A stretch of 34,020 bases of DNA from assembly GCA_003216295.1 (NCBI GenBank), contig QCJB01000014.1, positions 1 through 34,020 on the forward strand, in the 5' to 3' direction. Positions 1,446-9,171 of the stretch are shown here, one piece after another; the first letter of the stretch is position 1, and each line of letters begins with the position of its first letter. Both the position numbers and the translations under genes were made by a program. A model generated the notes under the pieces. The model had not been told where the DNA came from, did no database searches, and saw only the letters and a list, made by a program, of their open reading frames with translations. The stretch comes from Prochlorococcus sp. AG-402-P16. Its GTDB lineage: Bacteria; Cyanobacteriota; Cyanobacteriia; PCC-6307; Cyanobiaceae.

Positions 1446-1637
1446 TCAAAAACTAAATAAATTTATTTTCTTTAAAATAAAATTTATTGCTGGATTCATC
1501 CATAGAGGCTTGAAAAGTAGGTATATGGAAATAAAAAAAATTAATGCAACTGTTATTCCATAAAATTGGACTTCTATTTCCTCCCAAATTTCTTCTAACC
1601 AAATATTTGAAAATATATTTTTATTTTTTTTATTCAT
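1446..1637 (-). CDS. Possible small single-pass membrane protein
   Basis: This 63-residue frame starts at an ATG followed by a Lys/Asn-rich stretch (MNKKNKNIFS). It then has an acidic amphipathic piece (WLEEIWEEIEVQF) and one clear membrane helix (YGITVALIFFISIYLLF), and ends in NLFSF. That organisation is common among small membrane proteins of picocyanobacteria. In DNA this AT-rich, however, short hydrophobic frames also arise by chance. No family is recognised. It is convergent with the gene ending at 1413, with 32 bp between them. Confidence 0.4.
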   Translation of the reverse strand: MNKKNKNIFSNIWLEEIWEEIEVQFYGITVALIFFISIYLLFKPLWMNPAINFILKKINLFSF

Positions 1638-1854
1638 TGATATAATTAATGTGAGACTAAATTAATATTAAAATTTTAGAAGTAACAACAAATAATATAA
1701 GATAAATTCATATCAATCTAGGCATGAGCAAAGATGGTTTAAGAATTATTTAAGATTAAATACTTGAAGTTAATAAATTGATTATAAAATTATTTCTAGA
1801 AACACTCAATAAAAAGCTTTTATATTTAAATTGAACTAAGTAACAAGATAAAAA

Positions 1855-2055
1855 GTGAAAAATGATCCATCTTTAGAAGAAATCATCTCTGTAACTCTTA
1901 ATTGTGTCTTGATCAGAATGACTGAGTTAAATAGAATAGATAGATCGGTACTTTATCAAGAATTTAGAGAATGGATTGTCAACACTGAAGAAAAAGATCT
2001 AAATCAAGAAATTTTATGCCTTAGATACTTGAAAAATGATAAAAAACGAAATTAA
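1855..2055 (+). CDS. Small hypothetical protein
   Basis: This 66-residue frame starts with GTG (GTG AAA AAT GAT). It is predicted to be mostly helical and charged: DPSLEEIISVTLNCVLIRMTEL, then DRSVLYQEFREWI, and a basic end (KNDKKRN). No family is recognised and no membrane segment is seen. The 217 bp upstream are gene-free and very AT-rich, which fits an own promoter. It is plausible as a short cytoplasmic protein, but the evidence is only the open frame and an amino-acid composition typical of real helical proteins. Confidence 0.4.
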   Translation: MKNDPSLEEIISVTLNCVLIRMTELNRIDRSVLYQEFREWIVNTEEKDLNQEILCLRYLKNDKKRN

Positions 2056-2131
2056 CTCCATTAATATATTTACTTAAATCTAAAGTCTCAATTTCAGAAA
2101 GAAAGCACTAAGATAAAAAAAACCTTAAGAA

Positions 2132-3108: not shown

Positions 3109-5448
3109 TTGGGTGGTTTCGGACAAAGGAGGAAAGAGAATAAAACCTCTTCTAAAAAACTCCTAAATCTTTCAGAAAAAGATCTGAAGGTAAAATCAAT
3201 CAATAATCATATTAAAGGAAATATAGATGAAGCTGAAAAAGGTTATATAGCTTTTTTAAAAAATGGATATTCGGATGCAGATATAATTTCGAATTATGCA
3301 CTTATATGTGAAAACAAAGAAGAAAATGACAAAGCTGTTAAATTATATGAAAGATGTATTAATAGCTATCCCAATCATATTTACTCAAAATTAAATTTAT
3401 CCTTTTTGTATTATAAGTTAAATAATTTTAAAAAAGCAGAATTAATGATTGATGAAGCAATTAAATTAAAACCAGATTTACCAAATGGATATTGTATTAG
3501 AGGGTTAATTTTAAAAAGTCTAAACAAATACGATGAGTCCAAATCATCACTCAAAAAAGCAATTGAAATAGATGAGAATTACTTTGATGCCTATATAAAT
3601 CTAGGTTTATTAAATAAAGATTATAATAGATATAATGAGGCAGAGGAATATTATTTAAAAGCCTTAGAAATAAACAATAAATCTGCTATCGCTAATTTAA
3701 ACCTTGGTGCATGCTACAAAGAAAAACAAGAACTAGAAAAGGCCCTATTACATACAGAAATAGCAATAGAACTAGATAGTAAATTAGAAAATTCTTATTT
3801 AAATTTAGCTACAATATACAATCAAAAAGGAGACTTAACTAAATCACTCTCGTTTGCTAAAAAAGAACTTTTGCAAAATAAGAATAGTGATTTAAGTTAT
3901 CAACTTATAAGTGAGTTAATAAAAAAAGGTGAATTATTGAATTTTTCAGATAAAGATAATAGAGAGTTACTTAAAGAGATATTAAATCGAAAAGATATTT
4001 CTCATCGAGAACTATTTGGTAATATAAGCAGCCTTATCTGCAAAGACATCTTAGAAAATTTATCTATTTTAGAGAATGGATTATTTGAGAATAAGGAGTT
4101 TAAAATTCTTATAAAGGACAAGGAATTAATAAAAGCACTTTCACTATTAATATTTTGCTCCCCATTATGGGAAAAAGTTTTAAGAAATATACGAAAGAAT
4201 ACTCTTATGCGATACTCAGATAAAGAGAAAATAAATAATAGTATTCTTAACTTTACTATTGGCCTTGGATCACAATGTTTCTTAAATGAGTATGTCTATT
4301 ACATCTCCAAAGAGGAAAAATTTAAACTTAAAGAAGTTATGAAAACAATAACTAATAAAAATAATCAAGACTATAAACTAGCATTAATCTCATGTTACCA
4401 ATCATTATCTTCGATTAACCATCAAAAAATTAATTTAAATACTTATAAATCAAATAATAAGGAATTCAATAATCTTCTTAATTTACAATTTAAAGAGTTC
4501 TATAATGAAAAAAAGATTTCACAAGAGATCAAAAAGATAGGAGATATAAAAGATGCAATATCTATGGAAGTAAAAAATCAGTATGAATTAAATCCATATC
4601 CTCGATGGAGATATAATTCATATGCTAGAGATAAAAAATTAAATCATTTATTAGTTATTAATTCTGAAATTCACCCTAATATAATCAACTCTAATTCAGT
4701 TAAATTAACAAATAAAAAGATAAGGATACTGATAGCGGGATGTGGAACAGGAATTCAAATACTTGAAGCATCACGATATAGTAATTGTGAAATAACAGCA
4801 ATTGACTTAAGTAATTCAAGTATCTCATATTCAAAAAGAAAAGTCGAAGAATATGGATTGAAAAATATCGATTTTATAGAGATGGATATACTTGAATTGC
4901 CAGAACTAAATAAAAGATTTGATTTAATTGAATGTTCAGGTGTACTTCACCATATGCAAAATCCTTCTGAAGGATTATCAAATCTACTTAATGTAATAGA
5001 ACCGAATGGTTTTTTAAAGTTAGGTTTATACAGTAGATATGCAAGAGAAGAAATACTAAAAGCAAGAGAACTAATTAAAGGGAAAGACATCAAACCAAAT
5101 CTTGATGAAATAAGAAGCTTTCGAAATGACGTTCTTAATGGAGAAATAAAAAAGTTAAATGAAATAACTAATTGGTCAGATTTCTACTCAACATCAATGT
5201 GTAGAGATCTCTGCTTTCATAGTCAAGAAAACTGTTACTCGTTAATTGAAATTAAAGAGCTATTAAAATTATCTAATCTTGAATTCCTAGGTTTTACTCT
5301 TTCAAAAGATATAAAAGATAAATATCAGAGAACTAATAAAGATATAAAAGCTTTAAAAGATTTAGAATTATGGGATAAATTTGAAAAATTAAATCCTAAT
5401 TCTTTTAGAGAAATGTATCAATTTTGGTGTAGAAAATCAATTAAATAG
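3109..5448 (+). CDS. TPR-repeat protein fused to class I SAM methyltransferase
   Basis: The product has 779 residues. The start is a TTG (3109-3111), chosen because the frame opens there with MGGFGQRRKENK; no ATG occurs earlier in frame. Residues about 35-270 are tandem 34-residue TPR motifs, for example NLGLLNKDYNRYNEAEEYY and NLGACYKEKQELEKALLH. A long helical linker follows. From about residue 485 comes VKNQYELNPYPRWRY, then a Rossmann methyltransferase with motif I at about residue 537 (ILIAGCGTG), an acidic end of strand 2 (TAIDLS), FIEMDI and SGVLHHM. TPRs plus a LHHM-type methyltransferase point to modification of a protein, lipid or glycan presented by the TPR scaffold; the substrate is unknown. 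Its paralogue-like partners lie at 28-34 kb. Confidence 0.85.
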   Translation: MGGFGQRRKENKTSSKKLLNLSEKDLKVKSINNHIKGNIDEAEKGYIAFLKNGYSDADIISNYALICENKEENDKAVKLYERCINSYPNHIYSKLNLSFLYYKLNNFKKAELMIDEAIKLKPDLPNGYCIRGLILKSLNKYDESKSSLKKAIEIDENYFDAYINLGLLNKDYNRYNEAEEYYLKALEINNKSAIANLNLGACYKEKQELEKALLHTEIAIELDSKLENSYLNLATIYNQKGDLTKSLSFAKKELLQNKNSDLSYQLISELIKKGELLNFSDKDNRELLKEILNRKDISHRELFGNISSLICKDILENLSILENGLFENKEFKILIKDKELIKALSLLIFCSPLWEKVLRNIRKNTLMRYSDKEKINNSILNFTIGLGSQCFLNEYVYYISKEEKFKLKEVMKTITNKNNQDYKLALISCYQSLSSINHQKINLNTYKSNNKEFNNLLNLQFKEFYNEKKISQEIKKIGDIKDAISMEVKNQYELNPYPRWRYNSYARDKKLNHLLVINSEIHPNIINSNSVKLTNKKIRILIAGCGTGIQILEASRYSNCEITAIDLSNSSISYSKRKVEEYGLKNIDFIEMDILELPELNKRFDLIECSGVLHHMQNPSEGLSNLLNVIEPNGFLKLGLYSRYAREEILKARELIKGKDIKPNLDEIRSFRNDVLNGEIKKLNEITNWSDFYSTSMCRDLCFHSQENCYSLIEIKELLKLSNLEFLGFTLSKDIKDKYQRTNKDIKALKDLELWDKFEKLNPNSFREMYQFWCRKSIK

Positions 5449-5604
5449 TTGTTCTTCCAATCCTGGAATAAACATTTTACATAGGGAGAAAATAAATAAT
5501 ATTGCTAAAACATTACCTAGCATTGCTATTGCAAAGCGTATTCTTAGATCCTTAGCAAATGGTAGTAGGTTTTCCCAAAGTTGTAATAATGGTCCGCCTG
5601 CCAT
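5437..5604 (-). CDS. Small membrane protein (55 aa)
   Basis: On the minus strand an ATG at 5602-5604 opens a 55-residue frame ending with TGA at 5437-5439. It has an N-terminal amphipathic piece (MAGGPLLQLWENLLPFAKDL), a basic turn (RIRF), one membrane helix (AIAMLGNVLAILFIFSLCKMF) and a short tail IPGLEEQLFN. The balanced amphipathic-basic-hydrophobic layout looks like a genuine one-helix protein. The last 12 bp overlap the 3' end of the converging TPR-methyltransferase gene. I do not recognise a named family. Confidence 0.6.
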   Translation of the reverse strand: MAGGPLLQLWENLLPFAKDLRIRFAIAMLGNVLAILFIFSLCKMFIPGLEEQLFN

Positions 5605-6066: not shown

Positions 6067-6345
6067 ATGAATCACTTTAATTATATCGATTTATTTGGTT
6101 TTTTAGCTGCTTTACTAACTACCATAGCTTTTTTACCCCAGCTATATAAGACATGGAGAACAAAATCAGCTGATGATGTTTCATTAATTATGTTGATTCT
6201 ATTTATAACAGGGCTTATTTGTTGGATTATTTACGGCCTAAAAATTCATTCAATTCCTATTCTAGCTGCTAATGTTGTTACCTTTATTTTTAATTTTTCG
6301 ATTTTAATTTTAAAGCTTAGTTATAATAAAAAAAATAATAAGTAG
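6067..6345 (+). CDS. SemiSWEET-type PQ-loop sugar transporter
   Basis: SemiSWEETs are small three-helix proteins that dimerise to give a facilitative sugar channel in the inner membrane. This 92-residue protein has the family pattern. Helix 1 (LFGFLAALLTTIAFLPQLYKTW) carries the Pro-Gln pair followed by the basic KTWRTKSADDVS. Helix 2 is LIMLILFITGLICWIIYGL with the conserved Trp and Tyr-Gly. Helix 3 is IPILAANVVTFIFNFSIL with the conserved Asn. The length is normal for a single SemiSWEET unit. The natural sugar cannot be predicted. It is a single-gene unit, with 76 bp to the following small frame. Confidence 0.88.
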   Translation: MNHFNYIDLFGFLAALLTTIAFLPQLYKTWRTKSADDVSLIMLILFITGLICWIIYGLKIHSIPILAANVVTFIFNFSILILKLSYNKKNNK

Positions 6346-6374
6346 ATTCTTTTATATATATTAAATTATTTTTT

Positions 6375-6396
6375 TATAGCTTCTTTACAAGCTATA
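6375..6396. repeat. Perfect 8-bp inverted repeat
   Basis: TATAGCTT and AAGCTATA flank the 6-base loop CTTTAC between the SemiSWEET gene and the 53-residue frame. There is no T-run after it on either strand (plus: GTTAATT; minus: A-run), so it is not a classical intrinsic terminator. It could be a leader hairpin for the frame at 6422, 25 bp downstream. Confidence 0.4.
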
Positions 6397-6421
6397 GTTA
6401 ATTCAGAATTAAACTAATTAA

Positions 6422-6583
6422 ATGTCAGGAGAAGAGCTTCAACTTATTGGCAGATCTTTGGCTCTGCATCCACCTGTAATGATAATTACACTTGGTTTAT
6501 TTATGTATATTAGAGGCAAAGCTATTGCAAGTAGTAATCCAACTAAGAAAGTTACTCCCTTTTTCCCATTTAGAAACGTCTGA
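6422..6583 (+). CDS. Small single-pass membrane protein (53 aa)
   Basis: ATG at 6422 opens a 53-residue frame ending in TGA at 6581-6583. It starts with MSGEELQLIGRSLALHPP, continues with one membrane helix (VMIITLGLFMYI), and ends in a basic, Pro/Phe-rich tail (RGKAIASSNP and FFPFRNV). Size and layout match the small one-helix subunits common in photosynthetic complexes, and it sits beside a photosynthesis-like cluster. I cannot align it with a named Psa, Psb or Pet subunit. It converges with the gene at 6639-7160. Confidence 0.55.
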   Translation: MSGEELQLIGRSLALHPPVMIITLGLFMYIRGKAIASSNPTKKVTPFFPFRNV

Positions 6584-6638: not shown

Positions 6639-7160
6639 TTAGCCAAATGGGTTAGTACCCATAAGTGGTCCTACAAATAAAAATTCCATAACCGCTCCAG
6701 TTATTGCAACAGGGAAAACCCAAATAGACATAAATCTAATTCCCATAAATTTTATTCCTCCTTTCCCTGCAAATGCATCTTTGGTCATTGTGTACACAGT
6801 TTCAGTATCTTGAACTGTGTATGTACTCTCTCCAGGGTTTGAGTAAGGCTGTGCAAAATTCAAGTTATTAATTAGATTTCTTACTTTGTTATGAAAAACT
6901 ATGGGCCAAACCCATAAGAAGAATATACGACTTGCAAATGCAAAAGTATCAGATTGAGGAATACCTAATTGCTGATTAGCTTTATCCTTTGGGAAAGCAT
7001 CCTCGATAATAGATGAAATTAAATTTTGATCTGTTGGAAATAATTCTTTTTCATTAAATTCTTTTGATGGATTATCTACTGAAAGAATATCAGCATCTTT
7101 TTTTTCTAAAACAGCCGTTGAGCTATTATTTTCATTCAGATTTGATTTCTGACTTTCCAT
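6639..7160 (-). CDS. Two-helix membrane protein of the PsbF-like cluster, unknown function
   Basis: This 173-residue protein has a Ser/Asn/acidic, probably disordered N-terminus (1-45) and a soluble segment (46-70). A first membrane helix spans about 73-91 (FASRIFFLWVWPIVFH), followed by a polar loop with YTVQDTETVYTMT. A second helix spans about 143-167, entered by KFMGIRFMSIWVFP and ending in EFLFVGPLMGTNPFG. I do not recognise a named family. The entry to helix 2 (IR, aromatic, I, a Pro a few residues on, then FLFV) faintly resembles PsbE, the alpha subunit of cytochrome b559, but with Trp where PsbE has its haem His; that is a guess. It lies 160 bp downstream of the PsbF-like gene on the same strand, but a terminator separates them. 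Likely location: thylakoid membrane. Confidence 0.7.
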   Translation of the reverse strand: MESQKSNLNENNSSTAVLEKKDADILSVDNPSKEFNEKELFPTDQNLISSIIEDAFPKDKANQQLGIPQSDTFAFASRIFFLWVWPIVFHNKVRNLINNLNFAQPYSNPGESTYTVQDTETVYTMTKDAFAGKGGIKFMGIRFMSIWVFPVAITGAVMEFLFVGPLMGTNPFG

Positions 7161-7320: not shown

Positions 7321-7614
7321 TTATGCGTTTATTACACCACGGCGAATAAATTGCATAGCAAAGATTGCTCCAAGGAAAAACACTGTTGGAATTCCTAATG
7401 CATTCACGGCCAAAGTTCTAACTGTAAATACAGGGTATCCATCTGTTGGTCTACCTTTATCTGCAACGATTGCTGTATCTTCCCAAACCTGCTGGTTTTG
7501 AATAGTAGGACCATTATCCCAGACAAATACTCCCCATCTTCTCAACCAATAATCAGTAAAGGCAACTGAAAAAATGACTGGTGTTAGTACCAAGAGTAAT
7601 TTGAGGTTGATCAT
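7321..7614 (-). CDS. PsbF-like (cytochrome b559 beta) protein lacking the haem-ligand His, N-terminally extended
   Basis: The C-terminal half (residues about 59-91) matches PsbF closely: [18 protein letters not shown], then [16 protein letters not shown]. PsbF is the small beta subunit of cytochrome b559 in photosystem II, with a single His in the VRWLAVH motif that ligates haem. Here that position is Asn71 (codon AAT, 7402-7404), and the conserved Trp two positions after Arg is Thr67. A normal PsbF has about 45 residues. This protein has 97, with an extra N-terminal helix ([16 protein letters not shown]), [15 protein letters not shown] and a polar linker. The N-terminal LLVLTPV run is loosely like PsbY. 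It cannot make the usual b559 haem site, so I do not call it psbF; a canonical psbEFLJ set is expected elsewhere. It is probably a thylakoid membrane protein. It is divergent from 7805 and has its own terminator. Confidence 0.85.
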
Positions 7615-7804: not shown

Positions 7805-8242
7805 ATGGAATTCGGTTTTAAAGAAATTCTCTTCGGATTAGCTGGCGTAAGCATGATTGCTTGGGCTGGGGTAATCGGTCTCTGGCATACATATATGTTT
7901 CCAAGATTTTTCAGAGAAGATTCAAGTCGAATTAATAACGCCTCTCCTATAACTTCTGAGAATCAGTCAGCTCCTGAAAAAAATGGGCCTAATAAGCCTT
8001 GGTTCCTTGATGATGAAGGCGGCACTCTTACACCTCAGGCAGCCTTGGGAGCAATAGGTCTCAACGATAGAGGAAAATACAGCAAAAAATCTTTTGTAGT
8101 TGCTGATTTCAATCCAGTTGAAGCTGGTTATGGAGTTAATAGGCTTTACACTTCTATTTTAATTGGTTTAGCTATTAGTACTTTTGTAATAATTTCCTTT
8201 GGACTTCAAAGTGGATTTGGAATGATGGGACCAAACTTATAA
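7805..8242 (+). CDS. Two-helix membrane protein of the PsbF-like cluster, unknown function
   Basis: The product has 145 residues. An N-terminal helix (about 8-30, ILFGLAGVSMIAWAGVIGLW) is followed by HTYMFPRFFRED. A polar, Pro/Ser-rich loop comes next (40-105), with NKPWFLDDEGGTLTPQAALG. A second helix spans about 113-135 (RLYTSILIGLAISTFVII), and the tail is Gly-rich, FGLQSGFGMMGPNL. No named family is recognised. The stretch FNPVEAGYGVNRLYTSILIGL is loosely like PsbL (NP..PVELNR, then one helix), a suggestion only. It is divergently transcribed from the PsbF-like gene across 190 bp and lies upstream of flavodoxin, so a photosynthesis-related role is the best contextual inference. Confidence 0.7.
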   Translation: MEFGFKEILFGLAGVSMIAWAGVIGLWHTYMFPRFFREDSSRINNASPITSENQSAPEKNGPNKPWFLDDEGGTLTPQAALGAIGLNDRGKYSKKSFVVADFNPVEAGYGVNRLYTSILIGLAISTFVIISFGLQSGFGMMGPNL

Positions 8243-8655: not shown

Positions 8656-9171
8656 ATGACTGTAGGAATCTACTTTGCTACAACGACAGGTAAAACCGAA
8701 GATATAGCGGAAAGGCTGCACGGCTTACTTGACTCTGCTGAAGGTCCTAAGGATATTTCAGATGTCGATGACCTTAGTGAATTAGCTGGACATGATGGGG
8801 TTATTTGTGGAATCCCAACATGGAACACAGGTGCTGATTCCGAGAGATCAGGAACCGCTTGGGACTCAATCCTTGAAGACATTGGCGAGCTTGATCTCAA
8901 CGGAAAGAAAGTTGCTATTTTTGGTTTAGGAGATTCTTCTACTTATACCGAAAACTATTGCGATGCAATGGAAGAATTACATAGGTATTTCCAGCAAGCA
9001 GGGGCCTCAATGGTTGGATACGTATCTAAATCTGATTACACATTTGATGAGTCAAAGAGTGTAGTTGGAGAACAGTTTTGCGGATTACCACTTGATGAAG
9101 ACAGTGAGTCTGACATGACTGACGAAAGGCTTTCAGGATGGGCAGAGAAGCTCAAAGGAGAAATGTTCTGA
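8656..9171 (+). CDS. isiB: Long-chain flavodoxin
   Basis: Flavodoxin is an FMN-containing electron carrier that replaces ferredoxin between photosystem I and its acceptors when iron is scarce. The ATG at 8656 is chosen because it starts MTVGIYFATTTGKTEDIA exactly at strand 1; the longer TTG start adds nonfamily sequence. Residues 8-14 (ATTTGKT) form the FMN phosphate loop. GIPTWNTGADSERSG carries the Trp that stacks on the flavin, and FGLGDSSTYTENYCDAM is the second flavin loop with its stacking Tyr. The length, 171 residues, is normal for long-chain flavodoxins with the extra strand loop. It is monocistronic and ends in a strong terminator. A Fur-box-like site upstream would fit iron control. 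The product is strongly acidic, as usual. Confidence 0.96.
   Translation: MTVGIYFATTTGKTEDIAERLHGLLDSAEGPKDISDVDDLSELAGHDGVICGIPTWNTGADSERSGTAWDSILEDIGELDLNGKKVAIFGLGDSSTYTENYCDAMEELHRYFQQAGASMVGYVSKSDYTFDESKSVVGEQFCGLPLDEDSESDMTDERLSGWAEKLKGEMF

Follow-up and report, generated by a model that had tools for sequence, protein, structure and literature searches.

In a 34,020-nucleotide stretch of the genome of Prochlorococcus sp. AG-402-P16 (GenBank assembly GCA_003216295.1, contig QCJB01000014.1; the whole stretch is hereafter called the window), we analyzed a gene whose product resembles PsbF, the beta subunit of cytochrome b559, but carries Asn at the position of the haem-ligating His. The b559 haem is held by one His each from PsbE and PsbF. 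Our comparisons suggest that the protein, referred to here as the long form, is a PsbY-like helix fused to a PsbF copy in which the haem His became Asn, and that it probably sits beside PsbE in photosystem II (PSII), in the place of PsbF and with no bis-histidine haem. With canonical psbF gone from psbEFLJ in the clade of the window and no psbY found there, the fusion protein would be the partner with which PsbE pairs.

A PsbF homologue with Asn at the haem-ligand position

The C-terminal part of the long form is a genuine relative of cytochrome b559 beta: residues 59-92 align with PsbF without a gap, in good agreement with the original prediction, made from the sequence alone, which had matched residues 59-91. 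PF00283 matches residues 60-82 (E 5.2e-9, 35.8 bits, cut-off 30), TIGR01333 (cyt_b559_beta) gives 64.2 bits (E 5.8e-18, cut-off 61.15), and the top PDB matches are PsbF-containing chains (best E 2.5e-12). The gene belongs to the NCBIfam family NF002717, "cytochrome b559 subunit beta, long form", whose model covers residues 2-97 with 182.3 bits (E 1.4e-54, cut-off 153), and it falls under the cut-off of NF002720. Reading of the codons confirmed that the haem His is replaced with Asn71 (AAT) and the Trp beside the site with Thr67, both as predicted. The protein is also about twice as long as PsbF, as had been claimed, with an extra helix at its N-terminus; a structure prediction of low confidence (mean pLDDT 65.7) places helices at residues 4-26 and 62-91. 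Thus, although the family cut-offs of PF00283 and TIGR01333 are passed, the haem ligand, the length (97 residues, not a single helix of ~44) and the locus outside psbEFLJ all differ from those of cytochrome b559 beta. For these reasons we do not file the long form under that name, yet we think that it works in the place of PsbF.

In the following, G-numbers denote genomes, g-numbers genera and L-numbers loci of the compared set, and G000 is the genome of the window. The ligand position is Asn in 101 of 101 distinct long-form genes (AAT in 88, AAC in 13) and His in all 33 distinct canonical psbF genes that the same search pattern picked up. Thr stands in place of Trp in 100 of the 101 long forms, the exception being G048 (VRWLAIN). 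In a weak tree built on the 30-residue core, G048 is the earliest branch of the long forms, which are monophyletic with a support of 0.79; the core is too short for this tree to carry much weight. An alignment of 19 sequences has 35 invariant columns, Asn71 included, and the Arg preceding Thr67 is likewise invariant in the long-form alignment. Outside the haem site, the C-terminal segment is near-identical to canonical PsbF. Because the codons vary while the residue stays unchanged, these sequences suggest that the Asn is retained by selection.

Canonical psbF is missing from the operon and from the searched genomes of the clade

PF00283 finds only two places in G000 (83% complete), psbE and the long form, and the same two without a third match in G001-G007, seven genomes of the same genus with 99-100% completeness, all but one of them single contigs. 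With canonical PsbF as the query and an E limit of 10, nothing was retrieved from G000-G007 apart from the long form and a weak match to psbE. The operon of G000, which is on a contig other than that of the long form, consists of psbE, psbL and psbJ (Table 1), and the ~30 bp between psbE and psbL leave no room for psbF. The psbE-psbL junction was read in 14 genomes and psbF is missing from it in all of them: ten of g1 (G000-G008 and G018), G301 (the genome of L013), G045 (genus g4, one contig, 100% complete), and G159 and G160 (genus g22, HL-like, one contig each, L263 and L262, 90 and 95% complete, G160 with 4% contamination). We take g1 to be the LLI/NATL clade, and G002, G227, G225, G138 and G158 to be NATL2A, SS120, MIT 9211, MIT 9215 and MIT 9515, respectively.

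As the only PsbF-like sequence beside an operon without psbF, the long form is no spare copy in this clade. The original prediction had described a paralogue beside a normal PsbF, and had proposed to look for a canonical psbEFLJ elsewhere in the genome, counting the absence of psbF as evidence against itself; what we found there is psbE-psbL-psbJ. The description does fit other Prochlorococcus clades: psbE, canonical psbF and the long form occur together in MIT 9401 (L082, G295), G296, G298, G299, G300 and G303, and both the long form and canonical psbF are kept in G227 and G225. In G297, G302 and G146, PF00283 finds the long form only, with neither psbE nor canonical psbF, a pattern that we take as assembly gaps, although in G146 (L270, 2 contigs, 100% complete) it may be a gap or a loss. 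Six of 272 genomes of the family have no PF00283 match at all. A pattern scan for canonical psbF across the family was too strict (154 of 272 matched) for its negatives to be more than supportive, and the independence of the psbF losses was judged from gene content alone.

According to NF002717, the long form is present in 31 of 41 genomes of the window's genus (30 above the cut-off), and in 15 of the 17 that are at least 90% complete. A family-wide search with an alignment of long forms (A1) found it in 81 of 272 genomes, counted by hand at a best E of 1e-20 or lower, with weaker best matches taken as canonical psbF and not every one read. By genus, the counts are 16 of 18 in g1, 53 of 87 in g22, 4 of 24 in g31, 3 of 3 in g24, 2 of 2 in g23, and 1 of 1 in each of g4, g6 and g7. 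A phage origin was also considered and rejected, as an A1 scan of viral contigs gave 31 pattern matches, none of which was a relative.

The N-terminal helix resembles PsbY

The added helix had been called loosely PsbY-like, and the likeness holds at the level of profiles. When 13 long-form N-termini were aligned with 13 PsbY sequences by hhalign, 31 columns were matched at 13% identity with a probability of 95.2 and an E of 2.8e-8, the latter being the value of a single comparison of hand-picked sets. Scored with the PsbY profile, 10 of the 13 long-form N-termini did better than every one of their 500 shuffles; for each of the remaining three, 4-5 shuffles did as well as the real sequence. The window's own N-terminus scored 8.6 bits (best shuffle, 7.1). 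In the reverse comparison, the long-form N-terminus profile placed 10 of 13 PsbY sequences above all their shuffles, and 1, 18 and 36 shuffles did as well as the other three. With either profile, seven further small membrane proteins reached no more than 4.2 bits. In the PDB at E up to 1, the one match outside PsbF-containing chains is a PsbY chain (E 0.43, positions 2-34). The long forms of G300 and G303 reach 14.4 and 15.6 bits with the Pfam PsbY model PF06298 (cut-off 24), and where PsbY has Phe-Asn-Ile, most long forms have Tyr/Phe-Trp-Leu. A psbY gene over the PF06298 cut-off was found in 12 of 26 genomes searched, including MIT 9401, G138, G225 and G227, but not in G000-G007 or G045; in this list G299 and G047 look like one genome, and G159 and G160 lie outside it.

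G042 carries a standalone 42-residue open reading frame (ORF), which the long-form N-terminus profile matches at 52.2 bits and the PsbY profile at 21.2 bits. The gene beside it, which we take for a pentapeptide-repeat protein, has relatives on the flank of the long form elsewhere, with an identity of 87% in G047, 72% in G048 and 28-31% in four genomes of g31. Given this standalone PsbY-like ORF and the flanking relatives of its neighbour, the long form probably arose at this locus, when a PsbF copy was fused to the PsbY-like gene there. The cytoplasmic side of the membrane is where the PsbY chain ends and the PsbF chain starts, which fits such a fusion. Separately, the HL-type locus L242 has at 6337-6570 (minus strand) an extra gene like the PsbY-like helix (MDIRYLIVGAPFIIAFFYTLYWLRKWGAF), adjoining the long form at its 3' end, and so do L193, L195, L243, L244 and L247.

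Changes at the haem site of PsbE

The alpha subunit has lost its ligand in another group of genomes. The psbE product IKFWVIQIVTLP (IKFWVIQ) of G041 and G042 (g2) and of G046 (g5) has Gln in place of the haem His (Table 1); G042 is one contig of 2,032,419 bp. These three genomes have no long form, and their PsbF keeps its His, with Phe for Trp. The Asn and Gln routes are alike in that an amide residue takes the place of one ligand. Between G042 and G049, PsbE differs at 8 of the 11 residues 15-25 and at 4 of 71 elsewhere (Fisher p 2e-6, for a stretch chosen after seeing it). The ligand position holds His in 60 of the 63 distinct psbE genes read and Gln in the other 3; a pattern for PsbE with His matched 254 of 272 genomes, and of those missed, G126 and G130 do have His while the misses in g2 and g5 are the Gln cases. 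Three residues past the His, Ala replaces Thr in 12 of the 63, all from psbF-less genomes (ten of g1, G301 and G045). This change is not required, because the psbF-less G159 and G160 keep the Thr.

Genes around the long form

The long form lies among small genes coding for hydrophobic proteins (Table 1), three of which, m145, m173 and s53, accompany it. The co-occurrence of m145 and m173 with it was examined in a hand-picked set of 52 genomes, eight from g31 and 44 from elsewhere, which are related and not independent. Outside g31, all 23 genomes that bear the long form have m145, as do 2 of the 21 others (G042 and G162; p 1.5e-10); with fragments counted, m173 is in all 23 and in 7 of the 21. 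In the eight g31 genomes, four of which have the long form, neither was found. A flavodoxin gene adjoins m145 in g1 loci, G045, L024 and two g24 genomes (G227 and G228); none was seen in the examined HL loci. Searches of Pfam, NCBIfam and PDB gave no credible family for m145, m173 or s53. The strongest candidate, PF01578 (Cytochrom_C_asm), matched 1 of 15 m145 relatives at E 0.0032 and we do not believe it, and a PHROGs search with the long form, m173, m145, s53 and a 55-residue ORF gave a best E of 0.019, to a family of unknown function. G172 (one contig; L243 and L244) has two complete copies of the cluster, each with m173, an N-like gene, the long form, m145 and s53, and L283 (G162) has m173, m145 and s53 in the usual order with no long form found between them. 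Scans for promoters (5 found, 8.6 expected) and terminators (3 found, 1.3 expected) were given no weight.

Table 1. Positions of the long form, its residues, neighbouring genes and the psbE operons discussed (positions are in the window unless a contig or locus is named)
Feature	Position	Strand	Basis or remark
Long-form PsbF-like gene	7321..7614	-	97 aa, ATG start; sole PsbF-like sequence found in G000
Codon of Asn71, at the haem-ligating His position of PsbF	7402..7404	-	AAT (plus strand att); codon reading
Codon of Thr67, at the PsbF Trp position beside the haem site, four residues before Asn71	7414..7416	-	Codon reading
PsbF-like segment, residues 59-92	7339..7440	-	Pfam, NCBIfam and PDB matches
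PsbY-like N-terminal helix, residues 1-32	7519..7614	-	PsbY profile comparison; PDB match; helix 4-26 in low-confidence model
m145, divergent neighbour, hydrophobic, invariant Trp-His	7805..8242	+	No credible Pfam or PDB relative
m173, two hydrophobic stretches, co-occurs with long form	6639..7160	-	No credible Pfam or PDB relative
s53, small, hydrophobic, invariant His-Pro-Pro, near m145 in many loci	6422..6583	+	Locus comparison
Flavodoxin (FldA), adjoins m145	8656..9171	+	NCBIfam match, locus comparison
Small hydrophobic protein without Pfam match	5437-5604	-	96-100% identical in other g1 loci, 58% in L182
SemiSWEET-type sugar transporter	6067-6345	+	NF037968, E 1.6e-30
psbE (G000)	contig C15 (L001) 1483-1731		Operon without psbF
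psbL (G000)	contig C15 (L001) 1761-1880		Operon without psbF
psbJ (G000)	contig C15 (L001) 1892-2089		Operon without psbF
PsbE with Gln (G042)	L208 1639-1887	-	
PsbE with Gln (G041)	L281 1360-1632	-	
PsbE with Gln (G046)	L280 1360-1632	-	

Discussion

PsbE is retained with its His and thus needs a partner of the shape of PsbF, and we found no candidate for this other than the long form. In such a complex the C-terminal helix would fill the place of PsbF and the N-terminal helix perhaps that of PsbY, which has been located near PsbE and PsbF (PMC4823308). Since Asn would face the PsbE His, the usual bis-histidine haem could not form, and b559 would be left either haem-free or with a weakly bound, singly ligated (five-coordinate) haem, of which the haem-free state seems the likelier. 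Thermosynechococcus mutants with apo-b559 (PsbE H23A and H23M), whose PSII lacks one haem ligand, grow photoautotrophically and have active PSII at the wild-type level (PMC9214863), which we count in favour of a haem-free long-form complex; those are laboratory changes in the alpha subunit, whereas the long form is a natural, fixed state of the other subunit. The same article describes b559 only in the low-potential form in Arabidopsis without PsbY. A chain that joins PsbF-like and PsbY-like stretches has been solved within PSII, namely chain F of PDB 7ymi and 7ymm, labelled Photosystem II protein Y; unlike the long form, it has the PsbF stretch ahead of the PsbY stretch and retains the haem His.

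Saving of iron is a plausible benefit of losing the haem, and the main hint at iron in these sequences is the flavodoxin neighbour. More broadly, and tentatively, whole natural lineages of Prochlorococcus may run PSII without the b559 haem by one of two routes, the PsbY-PsbF(Asn) fusion with loss of psbF (LLI, g4 and the HL-like pair) or the PsbE His-to-Gln change (g2 and g5), with the likely gain of one iron atom per PSII in iron-poor water.

Several observations weigh against placing the long form in PSII instead of PsbF. In the literature examined, we found no proteomic, structural or spectroscopic evidence of the long form in PSII. PF06298 did not match the window's protein at E up to 10, and psbY is below the cut-off also in G042, G049, G298, G300 and G303, which keep psbF, so that its absence is not specific to psbF-less genomes. 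Match counts point to canonical psbF in most of the g22 genomes that bear the long form, and given this coexistence the long form did not necessarily start out in the role of PsbF. Neither psbF nor the long form turned up in two g1 drafts, G008 and G018 (93 and 90% complete), where a gap is likely. Haem-ligand mutants of Synechocystis regained PSII accumulation with a tandem amplification of psbEFLJ (PMC9214863). Finally, the co-occurrence of m145 and m173 with the long form suggests a module that has its own function.

This last point leads to a different view, in which the long form is an accessory or assembly factor (the original prediction had suggested an assembly or photosystem-associated factor): it might act with m145, m173 and s53 in a separate membrane module, perhaps linked to iron stress, while PSII runs on PsbE alone or on a PsbE homodimer with a bis-histidine haem. 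The flavodoxin gene next to m145 and the many genomes that hold both the long form and canonical psbF speak for such a module, but it would be hard to explain why nearly all PsbF residues outside the haem site are kept unless the protein fits the place of PsbF. Moreover, the four g31 genomes that bear the long form lack m145 and m173, and all 14 psbF-less psbE-psbL junctions read fall in lineages that carry the long form. We therefore consider a separate module unlikely, and from the absence of psbF we infer that in the window's clade the long form is more likely the beta subunit of PSII itself.

The annotation of NF002717, the retained His of PsbE, and the invariant Arg before Thr67, which we take as the counterpart of the PsbF Arg18 that touches a haem propionate (PMC9214863), would also be expected of an ordinary beta subunit, with a haem that is bound and redox-active and has Asn71, another residue or water as the second axial ligand. 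The loss of the Trp beside the site in nearly all long forms argues otherwise, and the Ala for Thr in PsbE of twelve psbF-less genomes suggests an altered pocket, though G159 and G160 keep the Thr. To our knowledge, no b-type haem with an Asn ligand has been described, and we regard this explanation as rather improbable. A decaying pseudogene, a sequencing error or an assembly artefact can be set aside, as nothing was found to support it and the same Asn, written with two codons, is conserved in 101 distinct genes from many assemblies, with no internal stop in the 31 NF002717 matches.

The family itself is already named in NCBIfam. The names and descriptions of NF002717 and NF002720, as shown, do not touch on a lost ligand, on canonical psbF having disappeared or on a PsbY-like helix, and we found no report of the missing His, the PsbY-like fusion or the psbF loss in the literature examined, most subscription journals lying outside it; as far as that literature goes, these three features appear to be new. 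In MIT 9312, a gene named "PsbF-like protein" (PMT9312_RS06075), which may be the long form, is transcribed, being among the PSII-associated genes with reduced transcripts under leachate of high-density polyethylene (PMC6517427). Proteomics of SS120 (PSBF_PROMA, two peptides; PMC5451487) was dropped as evidence for the long form, since G227, taken as SS120, also has canonical psbF and the quantified protein may be its product.

There is still no consensus on a physiologically relevant redox role of cytochrome b559 (PMC12661325). A probable pairing of PsbE with the long form would mean that a culturable lineage of an abundant ocean phototroph is apparently unable to form the bis-histidine haem, making the role of b559 directly testable without mutants. 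If this is true, "cytochrome b559" is a misnomer in this clade, and Prochlorococcus clades are not alike in how much haem and iron they spend per PSII. The psbF-less branch could then be a natural test of what the b559 haem does.
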